The notes under the pieces are model-generated. The model searched no databases, was not told the origin of the DNA, and saw nothing but the letters and a program-made list of their open reading frames with translations. Positions 48,960 to 58,996 of a stretch of DNA of 60,931 bases are shown piece by piece. Source of the stretch: Candidatus Omnitrophota bacterium (GTDB lineage Bacteria; Omnitrophota; Gorgyraeia; Gygaellales; Profunditerraquicolaceae); assembly GCA_026387455.1 (NCBI GenBank), contig JAPLLR010000030.1, positions 1-60,931 of the forward strand, given 5' to 3'. Each line of letters begins with the position of its first letter. Within the stretch, counting starts at the first letter, position 1. Both the position numbers and the translations under genes were made by a program.

Positions 48960-49701
48960 AACAGAAGCAATAGTCATACAAAAAAGGCCTTTTCGCGAGA
49001 CCTCACTGATCGTGGATTTCTATACGCGGGGCTTCGGAAAAATGAGCGGCCTGCTTAAGGGCATCCGCACTGATTTAAAGAAATTCGCCAGTACAGTCGA
49101 GCCATTTTCCTTCAATGAAATAATCTTTTATGAAAAAAGAACGTCTTCTTTGCACTTAGTCTCTCAAGCGGACTCCCTGAATAACTTTGACCCCATAAGG
49201 CAAAGCATCTCTAAGATCTCGGCAGCCAGCCTTATGATGGATCTCCTGAGCGCGGTGATGCCCGCGGAAGATAAAAACGAGGAGGTCTTTGATTTTACGC
49301 TCATGTGTTTAAAAGAGTTGGCTGTTACCAATAGCCCTGAGAAAATCATGACCATCTATAAGATCAAGATGCTAGCACTCTCCGGATTTAAGCCGCACTT
49401 TGACTCCTGCATCTCCTGCGGCGACCGGATCATGGGCCAATCAAAATTCAGCCTAACACTTGGCGGACTTTTGTGCCCAAATTGTTTCGCTAAAGATTTC
49501 TCGGGACGTTCCATTTTCCGGGGGACTGTCGCCTCAATACTACATATCGAACGCAATGATTTCCGCAATAACCTCAGCTTAGGTATGAACCCGGATATCA
49601 AAAAAGAACTGGAGATCATTCTTAACGCTTTTATCAACTTTCATCTGGAAAGAGAATTAAAATCCCAGAGAGTTATAAACAAGCTAGCAGTACCAGTATA
49701 G
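48946..49701 (+). CDS. recO: DNA repair protein RecO
   Basis: This 251-aa protein loads RecA onto SSB-coated DNA in the RecF pathway. The N-terminal OB-fold begins with HKTEAIVIQKRPFRETSLIVDFYT and continues KMSGLLKGI. The zinc site CISCG and CPNC (about 155-182) is complete. The length is typical. It overlaps the ybeY 3' end by 14 bases. Confidence 0.94.
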   Translation: MAIHKTEAIVIQKRPFRETSLIVDFYTRGFGKMSGLLKGIRTDLKKFASTVEPFSFNEIIFYEKRTSSLHLVSQADSLNNFDPIRQSISKISAASLMMDLLSAVMPAEDKNEEVFDFTLMCLKELAVTNSPEKIMTIYKIKMLALSGFKPHFDSCISCGDRIMGQSKFSLTLGGLLCPNCFAKDFSGRSIFRGTVASILHIERNDFRNNLSLGMNPDIKKELEIILNAFINFHLERELKSQRVINKLAVPV

Positions 49702-49714
49702 GGGAGGGTCCACT

Positions 49715-50647
49715 ATGAAAATTGCTATTGTCGGCGCAGGCGCCATTGGGTCGCTTCTTGCGGCTTTATTATCCAAATCTAAAGAAGAAATCTGGGCGCT
49801 GGATAAAGATAAGGAACGCACTGGCAAAATTAGCCGCCAAGGCATCGCGGTAGAAGGGCTCTCTAACTTTAAGGCGGATATCAAAGCCACATCCGACCCG
49901 CAGGAGATCGGCCATGTGGATCTAGCAATCATCTGCGTCAAATCCTACCACACCAAAGAAGCGATAGCTTTCTCAAAGCCGCTCATCGGCGCCAAAACCA
50001 TAGTCTTAACTTTACAAAACGGCTTCGGCAATGTAGAAGTGATCAGCGAAATCGTTGGCAGCGATAAAGTATTGGGAGGGGTGACCAATGCCGGAGCTAC
50101 CCTGATCGACCACGGCAAGGTCCGCTACGCCGGAAAAGGGGAAACAGTAATCGGCATGCTCGATAGCCGGATCACTATCGAAATGCGCTATATTAGAGAA
50201 CTATTTAATAAAGTAGGCCTGGAAACAAAGATCTCCCGGGACATAAAAGGGCTGATCTGGTCAAAACTGATCATAAATGTAGGTATAAACGCGCTCACCG
50301 CCATCACCCGCCTGAACAACGGCAGTCTTGTGGAATTTGACGGAACACGTAAGATCATGCGCGATGCGGTGACTGAAGCGGTGAAAGTCGCCAAAAGAAA
50401 ACGAATCAAGCTGATATACGATGACCCGCTAGCAAAAGTAGAAGCTGTCTGCGAAGCGACTTCCGGAAATGTCTCATCCATGCTTCAGGACGTGCTGAGA
50501 AAAAAGCGCACCGAGATCGACTTCATCAACGGGGTGATTGTGCGCCAGGGCCAGGAAATGGGAATCGCTACGCCCATCAACTCCATACTTGTAGACTTAG
50601 TCAAGACGATTGAGACAAGCTATAAATCATCTGTAAGCACTGAGTAG
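49715..50647 (+). CDS. panE: 2-dehydropantoate 2-reductase
   Basis: This 310-aa NADPH enzyme reduces ketopantoate to pantoate in pantothenate synthesis. The N-terminal nucleotide fold is KIAIVGAGAIGSLLAALL. The catalytic Lys segment is SKLIINVGINALTAITR, and the C-terminal domain has SSMLQDVLRKKRTEIDFINGVIV. A GGGAGGG ribosome-binding site precedes it. The partner panB is 5.4 kb downstream. The stop codon is the edge of the inverted-repeat element that follows. Confidence 0.94.
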   Translation: MKIAIVGAGAIGSLLAALLSKSKEEIWALDKDKERTGKISRQGIAVEGLSNFKADIKATSDPQEIGHVDLAIICVKSYHTKEAIAFSKPLIGAKTIVLTLQNGFGNVEVISEIVGSDKVLGGVTNAGATLIDHGKVRYAGKGETVIGMLDSRITIEMRYIRELFNKVGLETKISRDIKGLIWSKLIINVGINALTAITRLNNGSLVEFDGTRKIMRDAVTEAVKVAKRKRIKLIYDDPLAKVEAVCEATSGNVSSMLQDVLRKKRTEIDFINGVIVRQGQEMGIATPINSILVDLVKTIETSYKSSVSTE

Positions 50648-50809
50648 CGGCCGCCTTGTACTGTTTCTCGCGGGGGCGCTCGTTTTGCCCCTGCGAGGCA
50701 AAACTTCGCTCGGCCTGCGGACCTCGCTCTCACCTGCAAGTGATAGCGGGTGATCCATGCCCGCTCGGTTCCTCGGACGCCCCGCTCGAAATCAGTCCAA
50801 GTCAGCCGC
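50647..50809. repeat. GC-rich element with imperfect ~30-bp terminal inverted repeats
   Basis: The left end (50647-50675, GCGGCCGCCTTGTACTG then TTTCTCGCGGGG) and the right end (50780-50809), read inverted, are about four-fifths identical. Shorter palindromes are nested inside: TTTTGCC/GGCAAAA and CACC...GGGTG. A third degenerate copy of the end sequence, AGCGGGTGGCTTGGCTTGA, follows at 50842-50860. No credible ORF exists. It could be a non-autonomous mobile element or a large foldback RNA. Confidence 0.6.
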
Positions 50810-50882
50810 TAACAACAAGCTTGCTGATAAATGGTAGGTTTAGCGGGTGGCTTGGCTTGATCCGAGCACGGCAAAAAGCCGC

Positions 50883-52592
50883 ATGAAAAGCGTAGAGATA
50901 GCGCGGATATTTCGCGACATTGCTAAAATATTAGAGATCAAAGGCGAGAATGTGTTCCGCGTGCGCGCTTATGAGCGCGCGGCGCAAAGCGTAGAAGACC
51001 TGCCGAACCTACTGGAAAAGTATATTAAGGAAGACCGCCTGCAGGAAATCCCCGGAATCGGTAAGGAGCTGGCTGAGCGGATAAAAGAATACTCTGCAAC
51101 CGGCAAGATCAAGTTATTCGAAGACCTGAAGAAAACTATCCCACCCGGACTACTTGAACTATTAAGGATTCCTTCCGTAGGCCCTAAGACCGCAAAACTG
51201 CTATTTGACCGGTTAAAGATCAAAAGCATCGCCAGCCTTGAAAAAGCTATACAAGCTAAAAAGCTTATTGGACTTGCCGGTATAAAAGAAAGAACAATTG
51301 AGAATATCCAAAAAGGTATCGCTATCGTCAAACGCGGCCAAGAACGCATGACTCTTGCCCAAGCTACTGCTACTGCCCAGGAATTCATCGAGCCTTTAGA
51401 GAAGCTTCCTGAAGTAAAAAGAATTTCAACCGGCGGCAGCCTCAGGCGCAGAAAAGAAACTGTGCGCGATGTTGACATTCTCATCGCCTCTGACAAACCC
51501 AGAGACATAATGCATTCCTTTGTCAATCTTCCGATGGTGCGCGACGTCACTGCGGAAGGAAAGACTAAGGCTTCTGTACGCACCAAAAACGATTCTCAGA
51601 TAGATTGCCGTGTAGTTGAAGACAGATCATTCGGAGCTGCTCTAATGTACTTCACCGGCTCTAAAGAATTCAATATCAAAATTCGCCAGCTGGCCATAAA
51701 AAAAGCCCTTAAAATCAATGAATACGGGGTGTTCCGTAAAGACAAATTTATTTGCGGCAGAACTGAAAAAGAAGTATTCAAAATCCTTGGCCTGTCCTTT
51801 ATACCTCCAGAACTACGCGAAAATAGCGGTGAGATAGAGCTATCACTCAAAAACAAGCTACCAAAACTAGTCACGCTCAACGACATCAAGGGCGACCTAC
51901 ACTCACATTCTACCTGGTCCGACGGAAACAACACCATTGAAGAAATGGCTCAAGCCGCGATAAAGCTCGGCTACTCCTATATCGCTATCACCGACCACTC
52001 CCAAAGCCTTAAAATCGCCAATGGCCTTACCCCCGCGGAATTAAAAAAGAAAAAGGCAGAAATAGAACGGATAAACAAAAAACTGAAGAACTTCCGCATT
52101 CTCTACGGCACAGAAGTAGATATCGACTCTCGGGGCAAAACCGATTATCCTGACAAAATCTTGGCAGAGTTCGATATTGTGATCGGTGCTATCCACACCG
52201 GGTTTAAACAATCCAGAGCCCAGATCACCAAACGACTCGTAAGCGCTTGCAAAAATAAATTCGTAAATATCATCGCTCATCCCACCGGAAGACTCTGGGG
52301 GGTACGCGAGGCTTTTGATCTAGATATAGATGAAATATTTAAGGCAGCTTCCGGAACAAAAACGTGCCTCGAGATCAACTCTTATCCACAAAGGCTCGAC
52401 CTAAACGATATAAACTGCCGCAGGGCAAAAGAATTGGGAGTGAGGATCTCTATCGGAACCGACTCACACACTGCCCAACAGCTTCAATCCATGCAGCTTG
52501 GTGTATCCGTAGCCCGCAGAGGTTGGCTTACCTCAAAAAACATCATCAATGCCTTGCCGCTTGAAAAATTGTTTAAATCGATCAGAAAATGA
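50883..52592 (+). CDS. polX: Family X DNA polymerase / PHP protein PolX
   Basis: This 569-aa DNA repair protein joins a family X polymerase (N-terminal 8-kDa and HhH region VFRVRAYERAAQS, IPGIGKELAERI, VGPKTAKLL; nucleotidyltransferase GGSLRRRKETVRDVDILI) to a C-terminal PHP domain (GDLHSHSTWSDG, AITDHSQSL, HPTGRLWG, IGTDSHTAQQL) that would have 3'-5' exonuclease or phosphatase activity. The frame is open from GTG 50847, but the family N-terminus KSVEIARIFRDIAKILEIKG supports ATG 50883. No Shine-Dalgarno is seen. It overlaps apbE by four bases. Confidence 0.95.
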   Translation: MKSVEIARIFRDIAKILEIKGENVFRVRAYERAAQSVEDLPNLLEKYIKEDRLQEIPGIGKELAERIKEYSATGKIKLFEDLKKTIPPGLLELLRIPSVGPKTAKLLFDRLKIKSIASLEKAIQAKKLIGLAGIKERTIENIQKGIAIVKRGQERMTLAQATATAQEFIEPLEKLPEVKRISTGGSLRRRKETVRDVDILIASDKPRDIMHSFVNLPMVRDVTAEGKTKASVRTKNDSQIDCRVVEDRSFGAALMYFTGSKEFNIKIRQLAIKKALKINEYGVFRKDKFICGRTEKEVFKILGLSFIPPELRENSGEIELSLKNKLPKLVTLNDIKGDLHSHSTWSDGNNTIEEMAQAAIKLGYSYIAITDHSQSLKIANGLTPAELKKKKAEIERINKKLKNFRILYGTEVDIDSRGKTDYPDKILAEFDIVIGAIHTGFKQSRAQITKRLVSACKNKFVNIIAHPTGRLWGVREAFDLDIDEIFKAASGTKTCLEINSYPQRLDLNDINCRRAKELGVRISIGTDSHTAQQLQSMQLGVSVARRGWLTSKNIINALPLEKLFKSIRK

Positions 52593-53497
52593 AGAAGATA
52601 GCAGCGTTACTTATTAGTCTTATCTTAGCCGGATGTCAGAATAAACCTATTTACAAAGACACCCGCTTAGCCCTTGGCACCTACATTAAAATCACCTCAA
52701 ACGACAAAAGAGCGGCAAAAATAGTTTTTGATGAAATCGATCGCATCGAAAACCTGCTCAGCAAATACAAGCCCGATAGCGAAATATCAAAGCTAAACAG
52801 GCTGGGGAGGTTGAAAGTAAGCTTGGAAACTTTTTACATCATAAAGAAAGCTAAAGAATTCTGCCAGCTAAGTAACGGAGCATTTGACATCACCATTGCC
52901 CCCCTAATGGACCTCTGGGGATTCACAGACAAAAAATTCAGGATCCCTGAAACAAAAGAAATCAAAAACACACTGAAACTCATAGGTTCGGAAAAATTAG
53001 TTTTGAATGAATTTGAATCTGTGATAGAATTAAGTTTCCCTGGTATGAAAATCGACCTGGGAGGAATAGCCAAAGGCTTTGCCCTGGATTGCGCGGTAAA
53101 GAAACTTAAGGGAAACTTTATAACCAGCTGCCTGATATCCGCAGGGCAAGTTTACGCATTAGGCAACAATTCGGGGAAACCCTGGAAAATAGCGATTAAG
53201 GATCCGCGCGCGCAGATTACTGCAGGCAAAATAGAATTAATTGATCAGTCTGTGGCAACCTCCGGAGATTACGAACAGTATTTTACCGTAAATGGAAAGC
53301 GATTTTCCCATATCATGGACCCACGCACCGGATACCCGGCTGAATCAAAAGTAATTTCCGCAACCGTAGTTGCCAGTGACGGACTAACCGCAGATGCCCT
53401 GTCCACCGCGATCTTTGTATTAGGTAAGCTAAAGGGAGAAGAGCTTGTGAAGAAGTTCCCCGGCACCAAGATCAAAACCATATGCCAAACCAATTAA
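52589..53497 (+). CDS. apbE: FAD:protein FMN transferase ApbE (lipoprotein)
   Basis: This 302-aa lipoprotein (lipobox LAGC, Cys at about residue 16) would attach FMN to Thr or Ser residues of exported redox proteins such as Nqr/Rnf subunits. Family features are RLALGTYIKIT, KYKPDSEISKLNR, LGGIAKGFALDCAV, TSGDYEQYF, HIMDPRTGYPA and SDGLTADALSTAIFVLG. Its substrate is not in this window. The 3' end overlaps the next gene by 16 bases. Confidence 0.93.
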   Translation: MKKIAALLISLILAGCQNKPIYKDTRLALGTYIKITSNDKRAAKIVFDEIDRIENLLSKYKPDSEISKLNRLGRLKVSLETFYIIKKAKEFCQLSNGAFDITIAPLMDLWGFTDKKFRIPETKEIKNTLKLIGSEKLVLNEFESVIELSFPGMKIDLGGIAKGFALDCAVKKLKGNFITSCLISAGQVYALGNNSGKPWKIAIKDPRAQITAGKIELIDQSVATSGDYEQYFTVNGKRFSHIMDPRTGYPAESKVISATVVASDGLTADALSTAIFVLGKLKGEELVKKFPGTKIKTICQTN

Positions 53498-54834
53498 GGC
53501 CTGACCTCATCACTTTAAAGCACGAAGCTAGCCAGATGTTTGTGTATTTCTCCGACCTGATGGATAAACCGGTCTATGATAAAAACGACAGGCTATCCGG
53601 AAAGATCTACGACATCATAGTCAAACCCACCGAAGTCTATCCCCAATCTGTTGCGTTAATCATCCGCAAGGGTTTCATCAACAAAGTTTACGCGGTCGTG
53701 CCCTGGGGCCAGATCGAAGAACTGGATAAGGATGAGGCCCACCTAGCTATAAGACACTCCCTGCTCAACTTTGAACCAAGGCACGACAATAAAGACGAAT
53801 TTTCCCTGCGTAGAGACATACTCGACCAGCAAGTAGTAGATACTTATAATCATAAAGTCGTGCGTATAAATGATATCCATCTGCTTTTTGTGGAACATGC
53901 AATGATGGCTGCCCACGTGGATATCAGCCTGCGCGGCCTCATCAGGCGCCTGGGTTTCGAAAAAGTCGTGGACGGACTTGTAAACACATTTAACTCAAAT
54001 GCCGACTATATAAAAAATGAGCATCTGATCTCCTGGAAATACATCCATCCGCTGACCATCAACCCGGCAAGCATGACCATTAAGGTGGCGGTTCCCTATA
54101 AACAATTTAACGCCATACCCGCCGCGGACCTGGGAGACATATTTCTGGATCTTGACATCAAACAAAAGGTGGCGCTTTTCAAATCCCTGGACTTAAAGAC
54201 CCGCACTCGCGTTTTCATGAACGTTGATTTCAAAACCCAGCGCTCGCTCCTTAATGAATTAAAAGATAACGAGATCTCCGAAATCCTCTACAATATACCC
54301 ACTGACGAAGCTACCGACTTCTTAGAACGCCTGCCTAAACGCGAAATCACCCAGCTGCTTAGCTTTATCGAATCCAAACACTCCAAAAAACTCTCCCAAC
54401 TGCTGGGGTTCTCCAGTGACTCCGCAGGCGGCTTAATGACCACGGAATATATGGCCTTTGCCAAAAACGCGATTGTAGAGTCTGTATTAAAACAGATAAA
54501 AGAGAAGGAGTTTAAAGTCGAACCTGCGCAGTTCGTCTATATCATAGATGAGGCTAATCATCTGGTAGGAGCGACAAATTTCCGACGGCTGATGCTGGCT
54601 GACCCCCAGGCTTCAATCGAAAGCGTGACATTCCCTAAGACATATTTCGTGCACATCTCCTCCAGCGTCAAAGAAGTGGCTTACTTAATGGAAAAATATA
54701 AATATTACGCGATCCCCGTGGTCGATGAACACAATGTCCTGCAGGGGATCATCACCGTAGATGACATCTTAAGCCAGCTTATCGCCATTGCCTGGCGCAG
54801 GCTCAAAAGAATAAAGGTCCAGCCCAAACAATGA
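53482..54834 (+). CDS. Soluble MgtE-N / CBS protein with PRC-barrel-like N-terminus
   Basis: This 450-aa protein begins with two PRC-barrel-like segments (LSGKIYDIIVKPTE and HKVVRINDIHLL; about 15-130), then an MgtE_N superhelix (about 210-315, with repeated TDEATDFLERLP-type motifs) and a CBS pair (about 320-440, ending VDDILSQL). The MgtE transmembrane channel domain is absent. In MgtE these cytoplasmic domains sense Mg2+ and gate transport. The next gene is an NRAMP-related transporter with a four-base overlap, so this protein is probably its cytoplasmic regulator. The start at ATG 53482, inside apbE, is likely but not certain. Confidence 0.82.
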   Translation: MPNQLRPDLITLKHEASQMFVYFSDLMDKPVYDKNDRLSGKIYDIIVKPTEVYPQSVALIIRKGFINKVYAVVPWGQIEELDKDEAHLAIRHSLLNFEPRHDNKDEFSLRRDILDQQVVDTYNHKVVRINDIHLLFVEHAMMAAHVDISLRGLIRRLGFEKVVDGLVNTFNSNADYIKNEHLISWKYIHPLTINPASMTIKVAVPYKQFNAIPAADLGDIFLDLDIKQKVALFKSLDLKTRTRVFMNVDFKTQRSLLNELKDNEISEILYNIPTDEATDFLERLPKREITQLLSFIESKHSKKLSQLLGFSSDSAGGLMTTEYMAFAKNAIVESVLKQIKEKEFKVEPAQFVYIIDEANHLVGATNFRRLMLADPQASIESVTFPKTYFVHISSSVKEVAYLMEKYKYYAIPVVDEHNVLQGIITVDDILSQLIAIAWRRLKRIKVQPKQ

Positions 54835-56072
54835 AACACAAGCTAAATAGATTCTGGCTAAAATTCGTCCTTTTCCTCTCGGTAATGGGGCCGGGGATCA
54901 TCACCGCTAATGTCGATAACGACGCCGGCGGCATTACCACCTATTCCGTGGCCGGAGCGCATTTCGGATATTCTCTGATCTGGTCATTCATCCCCATAAT
55001 AATCGCGCTGGTCATCATCCAGGAAATGTGCAGCCGCATGGCCATCGTCACCGGCAAAGGCCTGGCTGACCTCATCCGCGAGGAGTTCGGCGTCAAAGTG
55101 ACTTTTTACGCCATGACCATCCTGGTACTTTCAAACCTTTTTAACACTATCTCCGAATTCGCCGGCATCGCGGCAAGCGCTGAATTATTCGGCATCAGCA
55201 AATATATCCTTGTTCCGGTATGCGCCTTGTTTGTCTGGTGGATCATCGTCAAAGGGACATACAAATCAGTGGAAAAGATATTTCTAATTGCCTGCGTATT
55301 TTATATTTCCTATATTTTCTCCGGATTCCTCTCCAAACCGGATTGGAAAGAAGTAGCACTTAGCTCAATACACCCCCAATTTAATTTTGACAAAGCCTAC
55401 ATACTAATGCTCATCGGAGTAGTCGGTACAACCATAGCTCCCTGGATGCAGTTTTACCAACAATCATCAGTGGTAGAAAAGGGTATCAAGATAGAAAATT
55501 ATAAATACAGCAAATGGGACACTGTGGTAGGCGCTTTTGTAGTAAATATCATAGCTATCTTTATCGTAATAGTCTGCGCTAACACACTTTTTAAGCACGG
55601 TATCCGGGTAGAGACCGCAAAAGACGCGGCCCTTGCCCTTAAGCCGCTGGTAGGAGACTATTGCTTTTACCTTTTTGCCTTCGGCTTGCTGAATGCCTCT
55701 ATATTTGCTGCCTGCATATTGCCGCTTTCCACTGCTTACTCAGTGTGCGAAGGTATGGGGTGGGAGGTAGGAGTGAATCGGCGTTTCCGGGAGGCCCCGC
55801 AATTCTACAGCCTTTATACGGCAATCATCATTATCGGTGCGGCAGTAATATTAATGCCAAACGTTAAACTGGTCCCTATTATGCTGCTTTCACAGGCAAC
55901 CAACGGTATGCTCCTGCCGTTCGTGCTGGTCTTCATGCTTCTTTTGGTAAACAACAAGCGCCTGATGGGCACTTACACTAACTCAAAACTGTACAACATT
56001 ATTTCCATAATTGTAATCTTAGCTATGATCACCCTCTCAATAATCCTGCTTTTCTCAACATTTGTACACTAA
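54831..56072 (+). CDS. NRAMP-related transporter with non-canonical metal-site motifs
   Basis: This 413-aa protein has about 11 transmembrane helices and the NRAMP (SLC11) opening GPGIITANVDNDAGG. Canonical NRAMPs have DPGN in helix 1 and MPH in helix 6. Here helix 1 reads DNDAGG (about residue 29) and helix 6 reads APWMQ (about residue 203), so the metal-selecting Met is replaced by Ala. These changes resemble NRAMP-related magnesium transporters (NRMT) more than Mn/Fe transporters. Coupling to an MgtE-N/CBS protein upstream supports Mg2+ as substrate. panB starts directly after the stop. Confidence 0.83.
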   Translation: MKHKLNRFWLKFVLFLSVMGPGIITANVDNDAGGITTYSVAGAHFGYSLIWSFIPIIIALVIIQEMCSRMAIVTGKGLADLIREEFGVKVTFYAMTILVLSNLFNTISEFAGIAASAELFGISKYILVPVCALFVWWIIVKGTYKSVEKIFLIACVFYISYIFSGFLSKPDWKEVALSSIHPQFNFDKAYILMLIGVVGTTIAPWMQFYQQSSVVEKGIKIENYKYSKWDTVVGAFVVNIIAIFIVIVCANTLFKHGIRVETAKDAALALKPLVGDYCFYLFAFGLLNASIFAACILPLSTAYSVCEGMGWEVGVNRRFREAPQFYSLYTAIIIIGAAVILMPNVKLVPIMLLSQATNGMLLPFVLVFMLLLVNNKRLMGTYTNSKLYNIISIIVILAMITLSIILLFSTFVH

Positions 56073-56906
56073 ATGGAAAATAAAATCACGGTTAACGAAA
56101 TCCTCTCCCTTAAGGGTAAGCGCAAACTGACCATGCTTACTGCCTATGATTATCCGCTGGCGTCATTAGTGGATAAAGCGGGAATTGACATGATCCTCGT
56201 AGGCGACTCGCTGGCTAATGTAGTTTTAGGCCTCGACTCTACCACCAAAGTCGGGATGACTGAAATGCTGCACCACGCTAAAGCTGTAAGCCGGGCGGTG
56301 AGTCATGCTTTAGTGATCGGGGACATGCCTTATGAGTCTTATCAAATCAACCCAGATAATTCAGTCAAAAACGCAAAGCGTTTTATCGAAGAAGCAAAGT
56401 GCGATTGTGTAAAGCTGGAGTGGTTCGATAAATGCCCGCAGGTGACCCGGGAAATCATCAAAGCCGGCATCCCGGTGATGGGCCATATCGGCCTGACCCC
56501 GCAAACCGCGGATCAGCTAGGAGGATTCAAAGTCCAGGGCAAAGACGCCGAAACTGCGAAGCGCCTAATCGATCAGGCGCAAGAACTAGAGAAACTAGGC
56601 TGCTTTGCTGTAGTGCTTGAGTGCGTGCCGGATAAGATCGCCAAAATCATTACCGAGAAACTAAAGATCCCGACTATCGGCATTGGCGCAGGCGTACATT
56701 GCGACGGGCAAGTGCTGGTCATCCATGACATGCTAGGGCTATTCTCCCGCTACACGCCGAAGTTCGTAAAAAAATATCTCGACCTTTCCCCCTTGATCAG
56801 CAAAGCGATCGAAGATTACAAATCCGAAGTCATCGCCGAAAAATTTCCCGGGCCGGAACACTCCTTTAGCATAAAAGAAGAAGAACTAAAAAAGATCAAG
56901 CCATGA
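56073..56906 (+). CDS. panB: 3-methyl-2-oxobutanoate hydroxymethyltransferase
   Basis: This 277-aa enzyme makes ketopantoate from alpha-ketoisovalerate and methylene-THF, the first step of pantothenate synthesis. Family blocks are LTAYDYPLASLVDKAGIDMILVGDSL, GDMPYESYQ, VKLEW, GHIGLTPQ, GIGAGVHCDGQVLVIHDMLG and PKFVKKY. It begins on the base after the transporter stop and overlaps the next gene by four bases. Confidence 0.97.
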   Translation: MENKITVNEILSLKGKRKLTMLTAYDYPLASLVDKAGIDMILVGDSLANVVLGLDSTTKVGMTEMLHHAKAVSRAVSHALVIGDMPYESYQINPDNSVKNAKRFIEEAKCDCVKLEWFDKCPQVTREIIKAGIPVMGHIGLTPQTADQLGGFKVQGKDAETAKRLIDQAQELEKLGCFAVVLECVPDKIAKIITEKLKIPTIGIGAGVHCDGQVLVIHDMLGLFSRYTPKFVKKYLDLSPLISKAIEDYKSEVIAEKFPGPEHSFSIKEEELKKIKP

Positions 56907-57619
56907 GTAATAAAGCTTTGAAGAATATATCTATTGCAATAGTGCTTCTTGTTGCATTGGCCTTCATAATTAAATTCGGCGGGCCGCAGATTCTACGCCA
57001 ATACATTTCCGTAGGCATCGGAGACTGCAAAAAGATCCCCATCCTTTGCGTGGTTCCAAATGACGAAATACTCAAACCCGAAATAGATAAAATTTCAACC
57101 AAAGATTTCGTTAACTATATATTCCCCAAGATGAGCGTCTCTGCGCCCAAAGGCTTCTCAGTGGTGCAGGAAATGATCAAGAAATACTATTACAAGAAAA
57201 ACCTTAAACAAAGCGCGGATTCCATCATCTACGTCCTGCACGAAGAAAAAGGATATTTCATCGAACTTTTCTCTGACGCTAAGAAACTTGGGGTAAAGGA
57301 CAATTTCGAGTTTTTACGGCGCACTTTTAACGCCCGGCCAGATGAGATCAAAAACTTAAGTGACGCTTTCTTTGTGATCATGAAGAGCATCTTCATCCCT
57401 GATATCGGAAACCAGAAAAACGCGGTGATGACCCAATTCCGGCTGGGGGATAAATACGGCTACATCACCTATAACCTAGCTAAAGACGTAAATTACTTCA
57501 GCTGCGACATGACCACTGACACAGACGCCTATTTTAAGATTTATATTAAAGACAAAGGGGCAAAACTTACCCTTAATGACCTCTTTGCCATCATTACCAC
57601 TCTCGCTAAAATCAACTAA
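56903..57619 (+). CDS. Hypothetical single-pass membrane protein
   Basis: This 238-aa protein has one N-terminal hydrophobic helix (about residues 8-28) and a soluble, probably periplasmic domain with a Cys pair (GDCKKIPILCVVP, about 41-53). The remainder is mixed alpha/beta, with readable segments FVVIMKSIFIPDIGNQK and GDKYGYITYNL. I do not recognise a family. It overlaps panB by four bases and ends in a hairpin that includes its own stop codon. Confidence 0.65.
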   Translation: MSNKALKNISIAIVLLVALAFIIKFGGPQILRQYISVGIGDCKKIPILCVVPNDEILKPEIDKISTKDFVNYIFPKMSVSAPKGFSVVQEMIKKYYYKKNLKQSADSIIYVLHEEKGYFIELFSDAKKLGVKDNFEFLRRTFNARPDEIKNLSDAFFVIMKSIFIPDIGNQKNAVMTQFRLGDKYGYITYNLAKDVNYFSCDMTTDTDAYFKIYIKDKGAKLTLNDLFAIITTLAKIN

Positions 57620-57658
57620 CCATTTTTCCATTTCATAGGTGGAAAAAGGGTTGATTTT
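57608..57658 (+). terminator. Terminator-like hairpin spanning the stop codon
   Basis: AAAATCAAC (57608-57616, last codons of the preceding gene) pairs with GTTGATTTT (57650-57658). Inside, TTTTTCCA (57623-57630) pairs with TGGAAAAA (57640-57647). The long A/T-rich stem ends in TTTTTA. It precedes the glycyl-tRNA synthetase promoter. Confidence 0.65.
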
Positions 57659-57670
57659 TATCGGTATTTG

Positions 57671-57679
57671 TGTTAGAAA
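57671..57679 (+). promoter_or_regulatory. Extended -10 promoter of the glycyl-tRNA synthetase gene
   Basis: TGT-TAGAAA with the hexamer at 57674-57679 ends nine bases before the ATG at 57689, so the leader would be only two or three bases. There is no Shine-Dalgarno. It resembles the tilS and HD-GYP promoters. Confidence 0.45.
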
Positions 57680-57688
57680 TATCACTCT

Positions 57689-58996
57689 ATGCCTCAAGAA
57701 CAGTTAATGGATAAGGTAGTTTCGCTGTGCAAGCGGCGCGGTTTCATATTCCAGTCCTCGGATATCTACGGCGGGCTTTCCAATACCTGGGATTACGGCC
57801 CTTACGGCGTTGAGCTTAAAAACAACGTCAAGCGCGCCTGGTGGAAGACCAATGTCTACGAGCGTAACGATATCTTCGGAATGGACGCGGCTATCCTCAT
57901 GCACCCTAAAGTCTGGGAAGCCTCCGGCCACGTCAAAAACTTCTTTGACTTAAAAAGCGACTGCAAAGGCTGCAAGAAACGTTTTAAAGCCGAAGATATA
58001 AAAGAAGCCACTAAGTGTCCTGAATGCGGCGGACAACTTACTGAGGCAAGGCCGTTCAACCTGATGTTTAAGACACATCAGGGCCCGGTTGAAGAAACCG
58101 GCAACGAGATCTATATGCGCCCGGAAACAGCCCAAGGCATGTTCGTCAATTTCTCCAATATCCTTGACGCCAGACATCCAAAATTACCTTTTGGCATGGC
58201 TCAGATCGGCAAAGCCTTCCGCAACGAAATCACTCCCGGAAACCTCACTTTCCGCACCCGCGAGTTTGAGCAGATGGAAATCGAATATTTCGTCAAACCA
58301 TCTGAAGCAGATGAAAAGTTGCAAGAGTGGATAGACACGCGCTGGAGCTGGTATCTTGACCTCGGGCTTCGGCCGGAGAACTTACGCAAGCGCGCCCACG
58401 CGCAAGATGAACTGGCCCACTACGCCAAAGCCTGCACCGATATCGAATATAGTTTTCCTTTCGGCTGGTCGGAACTGGAAGGCATTGCCAACCGTACGGA
58501 TTTTGACTTAAAGCAACACACCCAACATAGCGGTAAGGACCTACAGTATTTTGATGATGCCACCAAGGAGCGCTTTTTCCCCTATATTATCGAGCCTTCT
58601 GGAGGAGTAGATAGAAGCGTCTTAGCGTTTTTAGTTGACGCCTACAACGAAGAGAAGGTTAAAGATGACACCCGCGTAGTTTTAAAATTCCACAAAGATT
58701 TGGCACCTACTAAAGTGGCAGTGCTGCCTCTTTTAAGAAACCGGCCGGAAATAGTGGAGGTGGCCAAATCGCTTGCGGCGGACCTGAAAAAATCCATCAT
58801 CACTGTCTATGACGACACCGGCTCTATCGGAAAGCTTTACCGCAGGCAGGATGAAGTGGGGACACTTTACTGTATCACCGTAGACGTGCAGTCGCTGGAA
58901 GATAAACAGGTGACTGTGCGCGATCGCGATTCAATGTTGCAAGAGAGAATCTCTCTTGATAGAATAAAAGAATATCTAATTACTAAACTAAGTTAA
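57689..58996 (+). CDS. glyQS: Glycyl-tRNA synthetase (single-chain, homodimeric type)
   Basis: This 435-aa class II synthetase is of the alpha2 type used by archaea, eukaryotes and some bacteria, not the alpha/beta type. SSDIYGGLSNTWDYGPYGVELKNN opens the protein. A zinc-type pair CKGC/CPEC (about 92-115) is present, as are RPETAQGMFVNF, GKAFRNEITPGNLTFRTREFEQME (motif 2) and IEPSGGVDRSVLAFL (motif 3). The C-terminal anticodon domain starts near 340. It seems to be transcribed alone from a nearly leaderless promoter. Confidence 0.97.
   Translation: MPQEQLMDKVVSLCKRRGFIFQSSDIYGGLSNTWDYGPYGVELKNNVKRAWWKTNVYERNDIFGMDAAILMHPKVWEASGHVKNFFDLKSDCKGCKKRFKAEDIKEATKCPECGGQLTEARPFNLMFKTHQGPVEETGNEIYMRPETAQGMFVNFSNILDARHPKLPFGMAQIGKAFRNEITPGNLTFRTREFEQMEIEYFVKPSEADEKLQEWIDTRWSWYLDLGLRPENLRKRAHAQDELAHYAKACTDIEYSFPFGWSELEGIANRTDFDLKQHTQHSGKDLQYFDDATKERFFPYIIEPSGGVDRSVLAFLVDAYNEEKVKDDTRVVLKFHKDLAPTKVAVLPLLRNRPEIVEVAKSLAADLKKSIITVYDDTGSIGKLYRRQDEVGTLYCITVDVQSLEDKQVTVRDRDSMLQERISLDRIKEYLITKLS

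Follow-up and report, generated by a model that had tools for sequence, protein, structure and literature searches.

Nramp-related Mg2+ transporters (NRMTs or NrmTs) are distinguished by a DxxG - TxxA/T metal site that replaces the DxxN - A/CxxM site, and a member of solved structure, EleNRMT (7qia), carries both Mg2+ and Mn2+ but does not accept Ca2+, and its transport is not coupled to protons (PMC8806188). Most NrmT genes adjoin a gene for a homologue of the N-terminal cytoplasmic domain of MgtE, for which feedback regulation was proposed, and the link between NRMTs and the M-box riboswitch was reported in the same work (Shin et al., 2014; PMC4072509). Here, we analyzed a window of 60,931 nucleotides (the whole stretch of DNA studied; contig JAPLLR010000030.1 of assembly GCA_026387455.1) from a 1.68-Mb, 91% complete genome of a Candidatus Omnitrophota bacterium, in which two intact open reading frames (ORFs) on the forward strand encode a soluble PRC-PRC-MgtE_N-CBS protein of 450 amino acids (aa), referred to as the regulator (53482..54834; ORF, Pfam and AlphaFold2 model), and an NRMT of the SLC11/NRAMP superfamily of 413 aa (54831..56072; ORF, Pfam and phylogenetic tree), with an overlap of 4 bp (ATGA). 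With a probability of about 0.62, we propose that they form an operon for Mg2+ uptake, in which an NRMT carrier is subject to feedback inhibition in trans by a soluble Mg2+ sensor.

A reading of the DNA letters alone (the sequence-only reading) had described an MgtE-N/CBS protein overlapping an NRAMP-related gene between 53482 and 56072 and had taken the two for a magnesium-type NRAMP relative with an MgtE-type sensor partner, a description borne out by sequence, structure prediction, phylogeny, neighbourhood and genome content. Its view that a separate MgtE-type regulator is little described does not hold, as the pairing and the feedback idea are already known and the window is a further case. 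The regulator shares with the ancillary gene product of Shin et al. (2014) the association, the homology to the MgtE N domain and the proposed role in feedback, whereas the PRC and CBS domains are not mentioned in the text of that paper (PMC4072509), beyond which no report that links NRAMP to MgtE_N and CBS, or to PRC, was found in the open-access literature. As far as that literature shows, the tandem PRC architecture and the selective retention of the Mg4 and Mg6 sites are newly added; near-complete linkage, exclusion with MgtE and an apparent exchange of transporters under a conserved regulator are added as well.

Identity of the transporter

The transporter matches the Nramp family (PF01566) with 354.5 bits, and its closest solved structure is EleNRMT (7qia; E 4.5e-114), which is ahead of the runner-up, a classical transporter (E 6.6e-25), by about 290 bits. 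Its helix 1 (V-D-N-D-A-G-G) contains the metal-site motif N-D31-A-G-G34 (54918..54932) and its helix 6 (TTIAPWMQ) the motif T200-T-I-A203-P-W (55428..55445), which together give the D31xxG34 and T200xxA203 of the NRMT signature (PMC8806188). The sequence-only reading had placed DNDAGG where DPGN is found in classical transporters and APWMQ where MPH is found; these changes are real and the Met is lost (Ala203, followed by a retained Pro and by Trp205 for His), but the metal-binding Asp of helix 1 is retained as D31, and only the Pro and the Asn of DPGN are altered, to Ala and Gly34. The DPGN and MPH motifs and the metal-binding Met by which MntH and other classical NRAMPs (Mn2+, Fe2+) are recognized are therefore not present. 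Because NDAGG is found in 104 and TTIAPWMQF in 91 of the 119 sequences used for tree building, the changes are not due to chance.

In the tree of these 119 sequences, the window's transporter groups with EleNRMT and with every one of the 13 NRMTs that have an M-box, and the clade of EleNRMT and the window's relatives has a support of 0.94. Outside it are MntH (10ky, DraNramp and three MntH of Omnitrophota) and a second Omnitrophota outgroup with VDAASA/GAVIMPFM motifs, so that the window's transporter does not fall inside the Mn/Fe NRAMPs, a placement that would have spoken against the sequence-only reading. The M-box Mg2+ riboswitch, which Shin et al. (2014) regarded as a useful pointer to Mg2+ use (PMC4072509), lies upstream in the 13 loci, including those of NRMTs that are 58-62% identical to the window's and have the same metal site. 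The window's transporter is thus like the NrmT/NRMT clade (Ca_c0685 and Ca_c3329 of Clostridium acetobutylicum and EleNRMT) in its overall sequence, its DxxG/TxxA site, its position outside MntH in a clade with M-box-controlled relatives and its adjoining MgtE-like gene; it is unlike them in that it has no upstream M-box and comes from Omnitrophota. We conclude that it is an NRMT by sequence, of the Nramp-related Mg2+ transporter class, and that Mg2+ is its probable substrate.

The survey also revealed variants. Two Omnitrophota NRMTs (L062 and L163) have NNSAG in helix 1, with Asn for the metal-binding Asp, and TTITPW in helix 6; the regulator is still adjacent, and by their motifs they may have a substrate different from that of other NRMTs. 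The VDAASA and GAVIMPFM motifs mark a third Nramp-like group of Omnitrophota (L094, L095 and L098) with no regulator nearby, and two of them, L094 and L095, have a classical MntH on the same stretch. In Acididesulfobacillus and Peptococcaceae CEB3 (L140 and L148), an M-box is directly upstream of an NRMT gene that has no adjoining regulator, an arrangement indicative of control at the RNA level without a protein partner.

Domains and magnesium sites of the regulator

By Pfam, the regulator contains PRC (aa 21-85), MgtE_N (aa 213-313) and CBS (aa 387-433) domains, and the MgtE transmembrane domain is not found in it; the upstream gene thus encodes the sensing domains of MgtE with no channel, as the sequence-only reading had stated. 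Its score against the mgtE model TIGR00400 is 160.7 bits, below the cut-off of 232.75. It has the features of the NrmT-associated ancillary protein: an MgtE N-terminal cytoplasmic domain, no channel and a gene beside nrmT. The domain set is common to 62 homologues, in which Pfam detects MgtE_N in 62, CBS in 62 and PRC in 58.

The AlphaFold2 model, built on an alignment of the 62 sequences (mean pLDDT 87.7, pTM 0.53), predicts PRC-like barrels followed by a helical N domain, a CBS pair and a C-terminal helix (aa 426-444). Since the pTM is low and the linker of aa 192-207 is weak, the mutual placement of the two halves is not predicted; modelled alone, the N-terminal half reaches a pLDDT of 91.1 and a pTM of 0.86. 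The first barrel (about aa 19-98; 53536..53775) is also matched by Pfam PRC with 25.7 bits (cut-off 21.2). The second, PRC-like barrel (about aa 109-190; 53806..54051; pLDDT 91) is missed by Pfam and was detected by a Foldseek search of the structure model; the same segment of another regulator (L141) matches PRC with E 3.7e-4, just below the curated cut-off. The best Foldseek matches of the N-terminal half are the two-PRC proteins CdpB1/CdpB2 (E 2e-6), followed by single PRC barrels including that of the reaction-centre H subunit. These proteins are like the regulator's N-terminal half in fold but are only about 12-22% identical to it, and a common function is not implied.

The MgtE intracellular N domain (54118..54420; Pfam and Foldseek) is the sole one in the genome, and it is followed by the CBS pair (aa 318-433; 54433..54780), of which Pfam sees the second CBS and the model both. 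For the whole regulator, the cytosolic domains of MgtE rank first in Foldseek (8gpv, E 1.2e-20; Mg2+-bound 2yvy, target TM 0.80). Compared with MgtE of Thermus thermophilus (2yvy/2zy9), the regulator is like it in the fold of the N domain and CBS pair and in the equivalents of D91, D95 and D247, and unlike it in having no transmembrane domain, two extra PRC barrels at the N-terminus, a basic instead of an acidic plug helix, and Mg2, Mg3, Mg5 and Mg7 ligands that are mostly lost. On its sequence and its predicted fold, the regulator is probably derived from, or of common ancestry with, the cytosolic domain of MgtE.

The ligands of Thermus MgtE are E258 (Mg2), D259 (Mg3), D91 and D247 (Mg4), D226 and D250 (Mg5), D95 (Mg6) and E59 (Mg7) (PMC5882242). 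In the regulator, D275 and D279 (54304..54318) align with D91 and D95, and D428 with D247; D428 is kept in the C-terminal helix (54757..54813), a remnant at the position of the MgtE plug helix, which has a basic tail (LIAIAWRRLKRIK). At positions 59, 91, 95, 216, 226, 247, 250, 258 and 259 of Thermus MgtE, the window's regulator has R, D, D, K, K, D, S, R and R, so that Mg4 and Mg6 are kept, Mg2, Mg3, Mg5 and Mg7 are lost and the MgtE ligand set is incomplete. An acidic residue is found at D95 in 62, at D247 in 57 and at D91 in 53 of the 62 regulators; in Thermus MgtE, Mg2+-dependent closure is prevented when these sites are mutated (PMC5882242), which speaks for the regulator as a sensor. At E216, a further acidic CBS residue, an acid is found in 20/62, and the residue is mostly Lys. 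A phylum-wide loss of acidic sites was considered and is excluded by 19 MgtE proteins of the same phylum, which have an acid at E59 in 14, D91 in 17, D95 in 15, E216 in 17, D226 in 13, D247 in 17, D250 in 13, E258 in 14 and D259 in 19 cases. The stretch after D247 has a median net charge of -5 in MgtE, but of +6 to +7 in the regulator clade of the window (+6 in the window's own tail) and of +1 over all regulators, being negative in some clades. Judged by these alignments, the regulator retains two sites and is without most of those that couple the sensor to the channel plug.

Linkage across genomes and exclusion with MgtE

Among 285 Omnitrophota genomes, 58 NRMTs were found, and for 56 of them a full-length regulator is encoded no more than 630 bp away on the same strand of the same contig, in keeping with the adjacency in relatives on which the sequence-only reading depended. 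The regulator gene is first in 49 of these 56 pairs, and the transporter gene is first in seven, all of which belong to one deep, separate clade. In this clade (L082-L088), the NRMTs are deeply diverged (33-36% identical), 240-630 bp separate the two genes and a diverged regulator is still paired. One of the two exceptions is a 101-aa NRMT fragment at a contig edge (G267); the other, G283 (L202 and L203), is the only Omnitrophota genome found in which a full-length regulator and an NRMT are both inside contigs and yet separated. Among the matches listed, each of the 57 full-length regulators comes from a genome that also has an NRMT.

In a cross-phylum sample of 80 loci from other species, of which six are cut at a contig edge and 74 are informative, the regulator is next door in 66 (63 upstream and co-directional, one downstream and two convergent). 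By their record titles, these loci come from deltaproteobacterial lineages, Nitrospirae, Firmicutes, Acidobacteria, Chloroflexi, Spirochaetes, Zixibacteria, Elusimicrobia and a Methanobacteriaceae archaeon. The sequence distances of regulators and transporters correlate (Mantel r 0.64; 0/2000 permutations). No NRMT-regulator fusion was found in the 58 Omnitrophota and 80 cross-phylum loci; three long ORFs (L161, L168 and L154) were rejected as fusions, as their extra length is upstream and has no partner-domain match. In two genomes, G232 (L004/L089) and G158 (L011/L090), regulators that are 62-67% identical to the window's are beside an NRMT of another subclade, which is about 53% identical, compared with about 83% in neighbours, and L018, L019 and L022 are likewise mismatched. 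These sequence comparisons suggest that the transporter has been swapped under a conserved regulator in some loci.

The window's genome has no match to the MgtE channel (PF01769), CorA or MgtA, and its only Nramp-family protein is the window's transporter. It also encodes one CNNM protein (PF01595; G000:C2:76537-77076), a candidate Mg2+ exporter or exchanger. NRMT and MgtE occur together in only one of the 51 genomes of the window's family (Fisher p 3.9e-5), and among the 285 Omnitrophota genomes MgtE is found in 4/58 of those with an NRMT versus 143/227 of the others (p 9e-16), both p values ignoring phylogeny and genome incompleteness. The exclusion pattern within the family argues that NRMT substitutes for MgtE. 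Where Omnitrophota genomes lack MgtE and CorA, Mg2+ appears to be taken up mainly through this pair.

Proposed feedback in trans, its alternatives and the gene neighbourhood

Mg2+ homeostasis requires feedback, and the device that provides it for NRMTs has been in question since 2014. In the proposed mechanism, the NRMT, a LeuT-fold carrier, would move hydrated Mg2+, and probably also Mn2+, without proton coupling, like EleNRMT. When cytosolic Mg2+ rises, Mg2+ would bind at the retained Mg4/Mg6-type acidic sites and the N and CBS domains would compact. In this compact form, the regulator would attach to the carrier's cytoplasmic face by its tandem PRC barrels, its basic C-terminal helix or both, and would keep the carrier inactive; the Mg2+ substrate, the binding of Mg2+ by the sensor, the physical contact and the inhibitory direction are what we infer. 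To a more detailed version, in which the sensor of MgtE was freed, gained PRC barrels for docking and came to control in trans an unrelated, alternating-access carrier, with the basic plug helix contacting the carrier or the membrane and Mg4/Mg6 as the sole sensor, we give slightly less than even odds. If a Mg2+ gate does act in trans, a channel and a carrier would be governed by one and the same sensing module, and it could be asked how a sensor passes from one transporter to an unrelated one. Given the linkage data and the few retained ligands (D275, D279 and D428), this idea can be tested directly.

Several observations weigh against feedback by Mg2+. The Clostridium transporters complemented in Bacillus subtilis without the partner; NrmT of A. 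capsulatum, whose gene also has an MgtE-like neighbour, gave full rescue of a mutant in Mn2+ transport but only weak rescue of a Mg2+ mutant, and co-expression of the partner did not change the rescue of the Mg defect (PMC4072509). The gate supplied in trans that the sequence-only reading had suggested can, in the face of these results, be put only conditionally, although they do not exclude feedback, because an inhibitor active at high Mg2+ would go unseen in a rescue assay at low Mg2+. Eight of the 74 informative cross-phylum NRMTs are without an adjoining regulator, and no M-box precedes the window's operon or was found in the window or the genome. The plug-side and other sites are acidic in a minority or little more than half of the regulators (E59 23/62, D226 9/62, D250 35/62, E258 5/53 and D259 5/50), and the lost sites are often Lys or Arg. 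As closure of Thermus MgtE requires each of Mg2-Mg7 (PMC5882242), the affinity of the regulator for Mg2+ may be weak or lost.

Some of these points fit other explanations better. The pair could handle Mn2+ or another divalent metal, to which the sensor would answer instead of Mg2+. The A. capsulatum rescue, the transport of Mn2+ by EleNRMT (PMC8806188), the missing M-box and the fact that this transporter is the genome's only Nramp-family protein would agree with that, but we consider it unlikely, as no further Mg2+ importer is recognised in the genome, NRMT and MgtE interchange across the family, close NRMTs with the same site are M-box-controlled, and the acidobacterial NRMTs in the tree (A. 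capsulatum not among them) form a clade separate from the window. The partner could also be a factor for assembly, stability or targeting, with PRC barrels that dock and an MgtE_N/CBS part that is an inherited scaffold. The PRC barrel of the reaction-centre H subunit docks on membrane protein complexes. The basic or lost plug-side sites would also fit such a factor, as would the unaltered Mg2+ rescue on co-expression in the sole test done (PMC4072509). A pure scaffold, however, needs none of the D95, D247 and D91 equivalents, which are among the best-conserved sites, and transport without the partner indicates that it is not needed for assembly in B. subtilis, so that we give this explanation a low probability. 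Quite improbable, in our estimate, is a regulator whose CBS pair reports the level of nucleotides (ATP, ADP or AMP) and which adjusts uptake to the energy state rather than to Mg2+. Adenine nucleotides are common ligands of CBS pairs. ATP is bound in the CBS domain of Thermus MgtE (PMC5529423), but two of its three contacts there (Tyr170, Arg187 and Asp188) are changed in the window's protein (Phe351, Arg368 and Arg369).

The two genes are part of a dense run in one direction: ketopantoate reductase-like, PolX-like, ApbE, regulator, NRMT, PanB, an ORF of unknown function and glycyl-tRNA synthetase-like, where neighbours without a Pfam call were named from reading of the sequence. In a promoter and terminator scan of 49600-57700, the counts are at or below the shuffle average. 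The ORF between panB and the glycyl-tRNA synthetase-like gene (56903-57619; 238 aa) has no Pfam match above cut-off and no NCBIfam match, and it has an N-terminal hydrophobic segment. The regulator could instead start at Met19 (53536), and it would then no longer overlap the ApbE gene upstream, with which it otherwise shares 16 bp.

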